Assembly: GCA_004299845.1 (NCBI GenBank)
Contig: CP036201.1
Span: 2,356,001 to 2,420,000, forward strand
DNA: 64,000 bases
Reading direction: 5' to 3'
Source of the DNA: Verrucomicrobia bacterium S94
GTDB lineage: Bacteria; Verrucomicrobiota; Kiritimatiellia; Kiritimatiellales; Pontiellaceae
In this document: positions 15,098 to 36,296 of the stretch, in pieces
How positions within the stretch are numbered: the stretch's first letter is position 1
How the letters are laid out: every line of letters begins with the position of its first letter
Position numbers and translations under genes: made by a program
Notes under the pieces: model-generated
What the model was told of the DNA's origin: nothing
What the model saw: the letters and a program-made list of their open reading frames with translations, nothing else
The model's database searches: none

Positions 15098-15673
15098 ATG
15101 AATCGCACCGTTTTTTTCCTCTTCACCCTTTCTGCAGCGGTTATGCTGACCGGATGCTCCAGCCTGAAAGTGCACTCCAGGCAGGCGGTCGACTTTGACT
15201 TCGGCAGTGTGAAAACCTATAAATGGGTATCCGCCCCCCAAAACATCCTCAACGAAGATGATACCTATCTCCATGAAAACGTACAGATAGCCCTGAACAA
15301 CCAGCTCATGCAGCGCGGATGGACCCCGGTTCCGGAATCCGATGACGCTAACGTTCAGATTGTCTACTATATCAAACTCATGGAGCATCAGGAATATGCA
15401 GGTACTCCAACACAGGAGGAATCGCGCGTAACCGGCGGATTTACCTATAACGCCGACAAGGGCAGCTGGGGATATAGCGATCAGCCATCCGATCTCAATA
15501 TCTACAACATTGAAATCGGTACGCTCACCCTTCTGATTTACAGCGCGCAATCCGGCGAAAAAATCTGGGACGGCACACTGGAAACCCGTATTGATCGTTC
15601 CTCCCCCGTTGAAAAGCAACAGCGGCTGCTGAACCAGATCGCGTTCCGGATCATTGACGAAATCCCTGAATAG
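15098..15673 (+). CDS. DUF4136 lipoprotein
   Basis: 191 residues. Signal peptide and lipobox LTGC (Cys about 20), then a DUF4136 domain: VDFDFGSVKTYKWVSAP, alternating strands through IEIGTLTLLIYSAQSGEKIWDGT, and the closing RLLNQIAFRIIDEIPE. The family is secreted or outer-membrane associated, with unknown function. An AAAGGAG ribosome site precedes the ATG. It is divergent from the BaiN-type gene. Confidence 0.88.
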   Translation: MNRTVFFLFTLSAAVMLTGCSSLKVHSRQAVDFDFGSVKTYKWVSAPQNILNEDDTYLHENVQIALNNQLMQRGWTPVPESDDANVQIVYYIKLMEHQEYAGTPTQEESRVTGGFTYNADKGSWGYSDQPSDLNIYNIEIGTLTLLIYSAQSGEKIWDGTLETRIDRSSPVEKQQRLLNQIAFRIIDEIPE

Positions 15674-15706
15674 ACCTTCAGCGGCTATTCGCAGAATCTC
15701 TATCAT

Positions 15707-15717
15707 ACCTTCGAAGA
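15707..15717. promoter_or_regulatory. Upstream copy of the ACCTTCGAAG site
   Basis: ACCTTCGAAGA, near-identical to the palindrome 62 bp downstream. The pair brackets the promoter region of the winged-helix regulator and may be its operators. Confidence 0.5.
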
Positions 15718-15768
15718 TCTGAAAGTAATTCAGCTGTTATTCACTTAAATTTTAAACTTAACTTTTAC

Positions 15769-15780
15769 ACCTTCGAAGGT
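15769..15780. promoter_or_regulatory. ACCTTCGAAGGT palindrome before the winged-helix gene
   Basis: Perfect 12-bp palindrome ending 13 bp before the ATG of the regulator. Together with the site at 15707 it suggests autoregulation. Confidence 0.55.
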
Positions 15781-15793
15781 TTAAATAAAAACA

Positions 15794-16345
15794 ATGGATT
15801 TAAAACCCACATTATGGCGCACCTGTCGCGTTCTGGCCTCAACACCTCGGCTGCAACTGATAAGAGCACTGCTGGAGAAGGGCACCGCGTCGGTATCAAC
15901 CCTTTCCGCTCGCGCCGGCCTCTCTCCATCCAAAGGGAGCATCCATCTCCGCGCTCTGAATTCCAGGGGTTTGATATCTGCAACTCCAAAAGGCCGTTTT
16001 GTCTTCTACACTCCGGTGCCTAACCCTTCTGTCGCAGGAGCTGCACAGATCCTGACCGCTTTAAAAGTTGCCATTTCCGCTGACATGAATGATGACGAAA
16101 TCATCCATTACACCACCGCCTTCACTCATCAGCGTCGCATTGTCATGGTCAAAGCGCTTGAAGAACGAGGCTGTGAACCTGTCGAATTATCTTCTTTAAC
16201 CCGGATTCCACTGCCCGCCCTGCTTCGGCACGCAGAAAAATTACGTGCCCGTGATATGATCTCAGACCGTAAACATACCCTGAAACTCAGGATTCCGCAG
16301 AATCTCTTCGGACACGCCATGCTCGAATCCGCATTAAAAAGTTAA
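15794..16345 (+). CDS. Duplicated winged-helix (ArsR-like) transcription regulator
   Basis: 183 residues. The N-terminal half (about 9-72) is a winged helix with RTCRVLASTPRLQLIRALLE, the recognition-helix region LSARAGLSPSKGSIHLRALNSRGLI and the wing RFVFYTP. The C-terminal half (about 105-170) repeats the fold (HQRRIVMVKALEERG, LTRIPLPALLRHAEKLRARDMI). No metal-binding cysteines of classical ArsR are seen. It is followed after 3 bp by mtfA, so the two are translationally coupled. Two ACCTTCGAAG sites lie upstream. It has no clear ribosome site; the leader is A-rich. Confidence 0.78.
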   Translation: MDLKPTLWRTCRVLASTPRLQLIRALLEKGTASVSTLSARAGLSPSKGSIHLRALNSRGLISATPKGRFVFYTPVPNPSVAGAAQILTALKVAISADMNDDEIIHYTTAFTHQRRIVMVKALEERGCEPVELSSLTRIPLPALLRHAEKLRARDMISDRKHTLKLRIPQNLFGHAMLESALKS

Positions 16346-16348
16346 ATT

Positions 16349-17155
16349 ATGATACCAACGGTTTTCATCCTGACGTTTCTATTCATTCCCCTAGCACTCT
16401 ATAGCAGATCATGGATGAAAAAACACAAGTTCAACCGTATACTCTCCACACCGCCACCGGACCACTGGCGTCCGCTCCTGAAGAAAACACTGCCCATAGT
16501 CTCTTGCCTGGACCAGAAACGCTGGCAGGAACTCGCTGGGAAAATGCAGGTTTTTATCGCCACAAAACAATTTGAAGGCTGCGGCGGCCTGCAAGTCACC
16601 GAAGAAATGAAAATTGCCGTTTCTGCACAGGCCTGCATGCTGCTTCTTGGCCGAACGATCGGCATTTATCCCCGACTGAAAACCGTCCTGTTATATCCCC
16701 ACACCTACACTGACGGTGAAACAGCCCGGCTCGGGGAATCATGGTCATCGGGCGTCGTGGTGCTTTCCTGGGACAGCGTTCAGGGCGGAGCCCGAAATTT
16801 CCGGGACGGCCACAACGTAACCTTCCACGAATTTGCACACCAGCTGGATCAGGAATCAGGGAATGCTGACGGCGCTCCGATTCTGGGCAGCAACGCCTAC
16901 CAGACCTGGGCGCGCGTTTTCAGTATGGAATTCAACGATCTGGTAAAAAAAACGGAAAAAGGCCGAAAGGATGTCATGGATGAGTATGGCGCAACCAATC
17001 CGGCGGAATTCTTCGCCGTTGCCACCGAAACCTTTTTTGAAAAACCGCTGCAGATGAAAAATAAACATCCCGAACTTTTCGAAAAACTTCTCGGATATTA
17101 CAAAGTGGATCCGACGGAATGGATAGAGCCCTCAAAAAAGTTCTCCCAAATTTGA
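16349..17155 (+). CDS. mtfA: MtfA-like zinc peptidase (M90 family)
   Basis: 268 residues. An N-terminal membrane segment (1-19) precedes the peptidase domain. The metal motif is HEFAHQLDQ at about 160-168, with the third ligand in NPAEFFAVATETFFEKP. In E. coli MtfA is a peptidase that binds and inactivates the Mlc repressor of glucose uptake. Here the gene is coupled (3-bp gap) to a winged-helix regulator, which could be a comparable target. The membrane anchor is shared with many homologues. Confidence 0.9.
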   Translation: MIPTVFILTFLFIPLALYSRSWMKKHKFNRILSTPPPDHWRPLLKKTLPIVSCLDQKRWQELAGKMQVFIATKQFEGCGGLQVTEEMKIAVSAQACMLLLGRTIGIYPRLKTVLLYPHTYTDGETARLGESWSSGVVVLSWDSVQGGARNFRDGHNVTFHEFAHQLDQESGNADGAPILGSNAYQTWARVFSMEFNDLVKKTEKGRKDVMDEYGATNPAEFFAVATETFFEKPLQMKNKHPELFEKLLGYYKVDPTEWIEPSKKFSQI

Positions 17156-17595
17156 AGGCACTCTGCTCGCTTTCTTTGTACCGGAATGGCGCATGTTCTG
17201 ACCGGGAAACATACAACCGGCATTGCGCTTTTTCCGGCCGTAACATTTCTTCCGATAGCCGGCATGCAGCCGGCCAATGTACCGAACCGAATCGTCATCT
17301 ATAGCGGCCTATTTCTGCCGGTTGCTGCAACGCCCGCATCCTATCGGAAACTTCGATGTTCTTTATGGAGGCAACTCGTATAAGAATGCCGGCGAACCGG
17401 ATAGCCGGAAAAAAACGATCACGCCTGGTAAAAATGAATATCTGATGCTGGGCGATAACTCCGCACCAAACAGAAGTTTCGACAGTCGCTTCTTCGGTGC
17501 CGTCAACCGAAGCAACATCCTTGGAAAAGTTAAAACCATCTACTGGCCGTTCAACCGCATCGGAGCTGTGGACTGAAAAAATTCAGCTGTTCAGT
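17156..17595. other. Gene-free stretch holding a signal peptidase remnant
   Basis: About 440 bp between mtfA and the convergent NmrA-like gene. The only recognisable content is the degraded signal peptidase I gene described separately. Confidence 0.5.
17186..17576 (+). pseudogene. Degraded signal peptidase I gene
   Basis: The second part (about 17370-17576) encodes GKNEYLMLGDNSAPNRSFDSRFFGAVNRSNILGKV, which matches box E (GDN..S.DSR..G.V...I.GK) of signal peptidase I. An earlier frame (from 17186) carries FLPIAGMQPANVPNRIVI, reminiscent of the catalytic Ser-Met-x-Pro box but with Gly in place of the serine. The frames do not join and the catalytic lysine box is missing. It is read as a pseudogene. 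Confidence 0.65.
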
Positions 17596-36216: not shown

Positions 36217-36240
36217 TTTCATACATTCGAATGTATGAAA
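36217..36240. promoter_or_regulatory. LacI-type operator candidate 1
   Basis: A perfect 24-bp palindrome with arms TTTCATACATTC and GAATGTATGAAA, centred on CG, the symmetry typical of LacI operators. About 100 bp before the LacI-type gene. Confidence 0.6.
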
Positions 36241-36276
36241 TTAATTTCAATACGGAATAGATTAATTTTTTAAATC

Positions 36277-36296
36277 TCACACATTCTAATGTGTGA
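36277..36296. promoter_or_regulatory. LacI-type operator candidate 2
   Basis: Arms TCACACATT and AATGTGTGA around CT. It shares the YACATTC/AATGTRTGA pattern of the site at 36217, 60 bp away, which would suit two-site repression. Confidence 0.55.

Follow-up and report, generated by a model that had tools for sequence, protein, structure and literature searches.

The 64,000-nucleotide window analysed here (positions 2356001-2420000 of a 4.1-Mb single-contig genome, coded G000) contains a gene for a tandem ArsR-type winged-helix protein. Most members of its family are preceded by palindromes with common arms and a variable centre, and the palindrome of the window regulator recurs at orthologous places in a second species, G002. 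Judged from these sequence comparisons, we consider it probable (about 0.6) that the regulator is an autoregulating, site-specific member of a tandem-ArsR family that would bind the chromosome at many sites. The locus is laid out as follows, with the operators given as predictions.

15098..15673, + strand: DUF4136 lipoprotein gene (Pfam PF13590, E 9.4e-18, assigned for the window gene only)
15702..15723, no strand: operator 1, ATCATACCTTCGAAGATCTGAA, with one arm imperfect
15764..15785, no strand: operator 2, TTTACACCTTCGAAGGTTTAAA, 62 bp from operator 1 and just before the regulator start codon
15794..16345, + strand: tandem ArsR-type winged-helix regulator, 183 aa (ORF, HTH_5 profile, predicted structure, alignment)
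Residues 45-57 of the regulator: recognition helix 1, in which K47, I50, H51 and L55 are the columns co-varying with the operator centre
16349..17155, + strand: M90 (MtfA-type) metallopeptidase, 268 aa, with a hydrophobic N-terminus (ORF, Pfam, alignment)
17277..17576, + strand: C-terminal part of a signal-peptidase-like (S26) gene (Pfam PF10502, E 5.1e-9, assigned for the window ORF only)

The tandem ArsR regulator, its operators and its family

The earlier note on this DNA had described a double winged-helix regulator with its own operators, and both descriptions were borne out. Two stretches of the protein match the ArsR HTH_5 profile (E 3.5e-9), and its AlphaFold model (mean pLDDT 96.3) comprises two winged-helix domains, with residues 2-98 resembling CzrA (Z 12.5) and residues 94-183 resembling BigR (Z 12.2) in structure comparisons of the model. 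The ArsR-type model NF033788 was matched with 69.8 bits, above its cut-off of 55, so that profile, model and the structures of both halves all place the protein among the ArsR winged-helix regulators; the score against the SdpR subfamily model NF033789 was 27 bits, below the cut-off of 100. The fold of each half and an operator adjoining the regulator gene are features shared with ArsR/SmtB repressors such as CzrA, SmtB and BigR. In contrast to these, the regulator has two ArsR domains per chain, a private centre code and dozens of sites in the genomes counted. Metal-binding Cys/His motifs are characteristic of ArsR/SmtB metalloregulators; a reading of the alignment for metal-site residues found a single near-invariant cysteine, C11, and no Cys cluster in the regulator.

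Allowing up to one mismatch, ACCTTCGAAGGT occurs twice in the window, in both cases upstream of the regulator, at a spacing of 62 bp, which exceeds the expectation from shuffled windows (mean 0.13, maximum 1), and the G002 ortholog is likewise preceded by a palindrome pair, 60 bp apart. The regulator, presumably as a dimer, would bind a 22-24 bp palindrome of the form TTCACACC-TTCGAA-GGTGTGAA, and since the operators end just before the start codon, its binding to the pair would most likely repress the regulator-M90 transcript. A sigma-70 promoter scan gave no match at the operators, a promoter and terminator scan of the locus gave none above chance, the Rfam scan of the window matched a tRNA only, and PADLOC returned nothing beyond weak winged-helix matches.

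A regulator match (E 0.001) was found in 23 of the 43 genomes of the order, and an alignment search of the phylum (E 1e-15) found the regulator in at least 37 of 387 genomes, with up to eight candidates scored in each. Neighbours of the family members, named by eye, look like PgpA, AsmA-like, flavin reductase and other genes. The 126 HMM-matching ORFs were reduced to 73 rows by removing those with identical first 100 residues, an incomplete N-terminus or a short upstream sequence, and in 57 of the 73 the upstream sequence contains a palindrome that exceeds the 99% quantile of its own mononucleotide shuffles (56 of 72 without L037, a cut copy of L009). Two or more such palindromes precede 27 of the 73, and many members have their operators a short distance ahead of the start codon. 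The family palindrome reads TTCAYAC-N8-GTRTGAA, in an operator frame written from operators already seen; the arms, mostly TTCAYAC, are common, and the eight central bases vary among members (CTTCGAAG, ATTGCAAT, ATCGCGAT, CTCTAGAG, CTATATAG, TTTGCAAA and others). Paired copies are spaced 57-64 bp apart in most members of the window regulator's family, 71-83 bp in a sister family and in L024, and 31-33 bp in two PgpA-linked members.

Some members showed further peculiarities. In L090, L096 and L114 the ORF of a regulator paralog runs on in frame for about 160 residues, possibly as a natural fusion with the downstream gene; in the G033 copy this extension starts with MKIIRVISGGQTGADRAALD, and we take it to be molybdenum-carrier-like. 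A 423-aa ORF around the G002 paralog (L074) was read as an N-terminally extended ORF rather than as another fusion. The G023 member L071 (G023:C265) has its own palindrome upstream as well as a doubled one (22 bp spacing) over the gene end, and four such 22-bp palindrome doublets were seen in G023.

Linkage of the regulator and the M90 peptidase

Three bases separate the regulator ORF from that of the M90 protein, which matches Pfam PF06167 (Peptidase_M90) with E 1.5e-76, in agreement with the earlier description of an MtfA-like ORF at this spacing. The HExxH residues H160, E161 and H164 are invariant in 18 aligned sequences (window included), of which 15 have, by eye, a hydrophobic N-terminus. 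Against the MtfA equivalog model NF011939 the protein scored 87.5 bits, well below the cut-off of 400, and its two PDB matches were Mlc titration factor A and a putative metal-dependent hydrolase. The protein (16349-17155) also weakly resembles an ATLF peptidase profile (E 2.9e-4, below the curated cut-off), which points to no more than a distant fold relation.

An M90 match was found in 20 of the 43 genomes of the order. The regulator lies directly upstream of M90 in five of these 20 (G000, G002, G004, G025 and G001), in a linkage count that leaves out a G036 fragment, and in G003 it lies beyond the gene next to M90. No regulator was seen in the fetched stretch of 13 M90-bearing genomes (L100-L112), with the contig ending just upstream of M90 in G010 and G016. 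Among 47 fetched regulator contexts, 41 were without M90, and in six M90 loci from other groups the regulator was absent, by eye, among the three genes on each side; at L253, an M90 locus of another group, a short ArsR-like ORF was seen by eye 1.8 kb downstream. Other neighbours of M90 were read from 25 contexts minus L101, L107, L109 and L111, in which ORF picking gave no M90. A DUF4136-like gene, recognised by resemblance to the window gene, occupies the same place in G002, G004 and G001, and directly precedes M90 in G015 and G027, which have no regulator there. After M90, an ORF of 349-366 aa is found by position in G002, G003, G019, G020, G028, G015 and G010, and an S26-like ORF, assigned by resemblance, overlaps the end of M90 by 10 bases in G019, G020, G028, G015 and G010. 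The M90 locus appears to host the regulator only optionally, an arrangement that speaks against a dedicated anti-repressor circuit, and M90 looks like a co-transcribed neighbour in a locus often lacking the regulator rather than its off-switch.

In E. coli, MtfA acts on the repressor Mlc, and the earlier note had proposed a self-contained regulator-MtfA pair whose linkage should be conserved in other genomes. The double winged helix, the predicted operators and the tight coupling of the two genes stand, whereas a dedicated repressor and anti-repressor are not supported, and we rejected the pair as a default reading on the linkage across the 43 genomes and the fetched contexts. In such a circuit M90 would bind or cut the regulator and thereby relieve repression, as MtfA does with Mlc. 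The three-base spacing together with an intact HExxH, and adjacency in five genomes despite regulators of rather different sequence, are in its favour; nevertheless, the infrequent adjacency, the many M90-free regulator contexts and the poor score against the MtfA model make it very improbable. Both systems have a peptidase of the M90 family, but the E. coli partner is Mlc, and here the peptidase has a hydrophobic N-terminus and the pairing is not conserved. A second circuit can be modelled on SdpR/SdpI, in which an ArsR-type autorepressor is held at the membrane by SdpI: a membrane-anchored M90 would sequester the regulator at the membrane upon a signal. An ArsR-type, putatively autorepressing regulator does adjoin a protein with a hydrophobic N-terminus, but the unconserved linkage and the low SdpR model score leave this reading just as remote as the anti-repressor circuit.

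Recognition helix 1 and the operator centre

We used a partial Mantel analysis per alignment column, relating a shared residue to a shared operator centre while controlling for whole-protein identity. Across 55 regulators, residues 51, 47, 55 and 50 (window numbering) were the top four of 170 columns, all within recognition helix 1, and for each of them none of 500 permutations was as high. The next column, residue 126, lies outside recognition helix 1 (r 0.15), and the best column of recognition helix 2 reached r 0.05. In a run with 65 regulators the top three columns were 51, 47 and 50; these 65 of the 73 rows were the 55 above the shuffle threshold (minus L037 and L236) and ten below it, six operator-less rows being left out, and the below-threshold L027 and L029 were included by hand on account of a palindrome pair or of a clear frame around an asymmetric centre.

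Individual residues went with individual centres: TA centres were accompanied by N47 (17 of 22 cases) and Q51 (18 of 25), GC centres by V47 and Y51 (8 of 11 each), and K47 went with CTTCGAAG in all three cases, a centre that occurs with H47 and T47 too. The residue-centre mutual-information z values ignore relatedness. Because the co-varying columns concentrate in recognition helix 1, it is this helix that most likely reads the operator centre, as far as sequences can tell. The outer CAYAC arms are common to the family and the centre would be private to each member, and the second ArsR domain would by inference serve the shared arms or dimerisation.

Conserved sites and the proposed role of the regulator

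The window regulator's code was found well beyond its own gene. The pattern ACCTTCGAAGRT has eight forward matches in G000 (reversed control 0), and the perfect 12-mer occurs six times in G000, nine times in G002 and 12 times in G023, all of which have regulators with such an operator. In eight tested genomes in which no such operator was found, perfect CTTCGAAG 12-mers numbered 0-1 per genome (reversed controls 0-4). A looser pattern gave 29 sites in G000, 34 in G002, 19 in G004, 49 in G003, 18 in G028 and 6 in G029, compared to 4, 3, 0, 0, 0 and 1, respectively, for the reversed pattern; in G004, G028 and G029 the sites were taken by count, and in G000, G002 and the listed part of G003 the centres were read. 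The 34 sites of G002 comprise 25 with ATTGCAAT, the code of a second paralog, six with CTTCGAAG, two of TTGCGCA type and one that is chance-like, and the G003 matches listed are mostly of the TTGCATAA, CTTGTGAG and CTTTAAAG types, and these centres also occur in the operators of regulators from G003. Among the matches listed, such codes turn up around the genome, frequently as pairs spaced by some 60 bp, and lie between convergent genes and within genes as well as at promoters. Two CTTCGAAG matches without arms, at G000 3090974 and G002 C7:41832, are probably due to chance. The armed CTTCGAAG sites of G000 lie at five places:

Place 1: the regulator's own upstream region
Place 2: two sites, spaced by 62 bp, beyond the 3' end of the znu zinc-uptake locus
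Place 3: past the 3' end of ftsA-ftsZ, convergent with a metallo-hydrolase
Place 4: a single site inside an amidohydrolase gene
Place 5: a single site inside a gene without Pfam match (read from the G002 ORF)

The genes at these places were identified by Pfam as ZnuA, ABC-3, FtsZ, FtsA, Lactamase_B and Amidohydro_3. All five places recur at orthologous positions in G002, with 129 of 154 site bases identical compared to 667 of 1046 in the flanks. The ftsZ place has a pair in both genomes with a different copy intact, and here the alignment sets the intact G000 copy against the degenerate one in G002. Part of the site identity is built in, because the operator frame was drawn from known operators and the aligned places, for CTTCGAAG as for the second paralog, were picked for having sites in both genomes; it is the shared position combined with diverged flanks, rather than site identity, that carries weight in these alignments. 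Besides the regulator's own upstream region, its code is found at the same four other places in both species (3' of ftsA-ftsZ, 3' of znu, and inside two genes). As a separate observation, ftsZ and the amidohydrolase gene are split in G000 and whole in G002 (L127, L129, L126), a PPDK-like ORF in G000 also looks split and the S26 gene is short (window 17156-17576); several split or short genes may mean indel errors in the G000 assembly.

The second paralog showed shared places combined with a changed centre. Both G000 and G002 contain 25 of its sites, spread over 15 places, ten of the 15 being pairs in each genome, and 14 places are common to both, among them convergent, divergent and co-directional ones and one that is intragenic. 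The centre is GC in all 25 G002 sites and in none of the 25 G000 sites, and over the 14 places the outer palindrome was identical at 421 of 480 bases, the flanks at 1864 of 3112 and the centre dinucleotide at 0 of 48, of which four bases were not compared site against site, since L198 and L204 each include a G000 site, one of two, for which no partner was recognised in G002. The pairing of L203 with L176 relies on one neighbour with 52% identity. Recognition helix 1 of this paralog differs, with PVASSY in G002 and G004 and PCTSVY in G000, where a looser second-paralog pattern gave 38 matches (11 in the reversed control); the varied G000 centres would fit relaxed specificity too, and a new strict code is not required. 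One shared place is in the window itself, between divergent genes at 36220-36295, where palindromes with ATTCGAAT and ATTCTAAT centres lie 58 bp apart and the orthologous G002 place has two ATTGCAAT sites.

A similar picture was obtained inside dus. Matches to this gene were found in 25 genomes, and with the partial L279 and L280 and with G012 left out, ten of the 22 aligned orthologs of the order carry a palindrome site at the same codons; no such palindrome was seen in the other 12. The centres are ATTATAAT in G000, ATTGCAAT in G002, TTATGCAA in G003, TTCATGAA in G009, a doubled CTTCGAAG in G023, TTCCGGAA in G014, CTTGCAAG in G004, GTGCGCAA in G019, and TTGCGCAA in G020 and G021. The G003 site has a palindromy of 6/9, no better than non-sites, because its centre is asymmetric, and was counted for its arms and its regulator match. 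Set against the operators found for the regulators of their own genome, four dus sites are exact, two are off by one base and one by two, whereas the G019 palindrome is six bases off the one regulator code of that genome. Shuffling of genomes gave a permutation p of 0.001 for this match (eight genomes, centres typed by hand, with second-site variants for G000, G002, G014 and G019 easing the match slightly). The test did not include G020 and G021, for want of an intact regulator; they keep TTGCGCAA in dus although G020 holds only a broken family remnant with two stops (L296, G020:C111:77983-78288) and no regulator was found in G021.

The main rival to a multi-site chromosome-binding protein is a classical small regulon, in which an ordinary local transcription factor would repress its own operon and a few genes close to its other sites, the convergent and intragenic sites being roadblocks or by-products. 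Operators close before many start codons fit such a factor, as do second-paralog sites between divergent genes (L199 and L207 are promoter-compatible in this way) or before co-directional ones. Position-specific correlation of recognition residues with operator bases is described for the GntR family in PMC4494728, and factor-motif co-variation for the IclR and MerR families in PMC8222616 and PMC5045206. Recognition residues follow operator bases there as they do here, but the regulons are of promoter type, whereas here intragenic and convergent positions persist as the code changes. Moreover, only the regulator's own place among the five CTTCGAAG places is upstream of a clear gene start, while in G000 two lie between convergent genes beyond their 3' ends and two fall within genes, and we consider the small regulon rather unlikely. 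Rickettsia palindromic elements are palindromes within protein-coding genes, as are some of the sites here, and the dus and amidohydrolase sites indeed look like in-frame loop insertions. The palindromes might by analogy be selfish or structural repeats, or RNA hairpins, one of which the regulator inherited as its operator. However, the centres track the recognition helix of the regulators and are common to the predicted operator of a DNA-binding protein, the perfect 12-mer is nearly absent from the eight genomes described above, and a strictly fixed centre dinucleotide is not needed for a hairpin. Homology beyond the palindrome, as in Rickettsia-type repeats, was not seen in G002 either, where the spacers of ten site pairs are unrelated (mean identity 0.38, largest 0.66), and we find the repeat explanation hardly credible.

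Returning to the multi-site chromosome-binding reading, the main task of the regulator would likely be architectural or spatial, because the site positions are unsuited to an ordinary promoter regulon and are conserved; it may bridge paired sites, act as a roadblock or provide a positional signal similar to RefZ or SlmA. RefZ of Bacillus subtilis has five palindromic motifs, which keep their positions relative to oriC throughout the genus (PMC6657595), and SlmA of E. coli has 24-52 palindromic sites (PMC4726725). Like these, the regulator is a transcription-factor-type protein with palindromes around the chromosome, dispersed in sequence at conserved and partly non-promoter positions. RefZ and SlmA belong to the TetR family, in contrast to the regulator, and the only FtsZ connection here is a pair of sites beyond ftsZ in two species, but by analogy they are the nearest working models. 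A bolder proposal, which we hold tentatively, is that of barcoded chromosome marking: each tandem-ArsR paralog would have a palindromic barcode at fixed landmarks (intergenic, past gene ends, inside dus), and site sets would switch barcode along with the recognition helix between species while the landmarks stay.

Each component is already known: the ArsR fold, co-variation of protein and DNA at specific positions, and DNA-binding proteins with dispersed sites. Among the literature matches listed, from a search with subscription journals outside its coverage, there was no paper on the regulator family and none on sets of palindromes that keep their positions between species while their code changes with the protein, which weakly suggests that neither has been described. 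The second paralog provides a rare case in which roughly two dozen sites keep their positions in two species while their code differs along with one regulator, and it allows a direct test of how specificity can change in a protein that binds DNA at many sites. The family moreover offers a natural, decodable set of protein-DNA specificities, from recognition-helix residue to central base, and such a code would yield orthogonal repressor-operator pairs. It also becomes testable whether the landmarks organise chromosomes in Kiritimatiellota.
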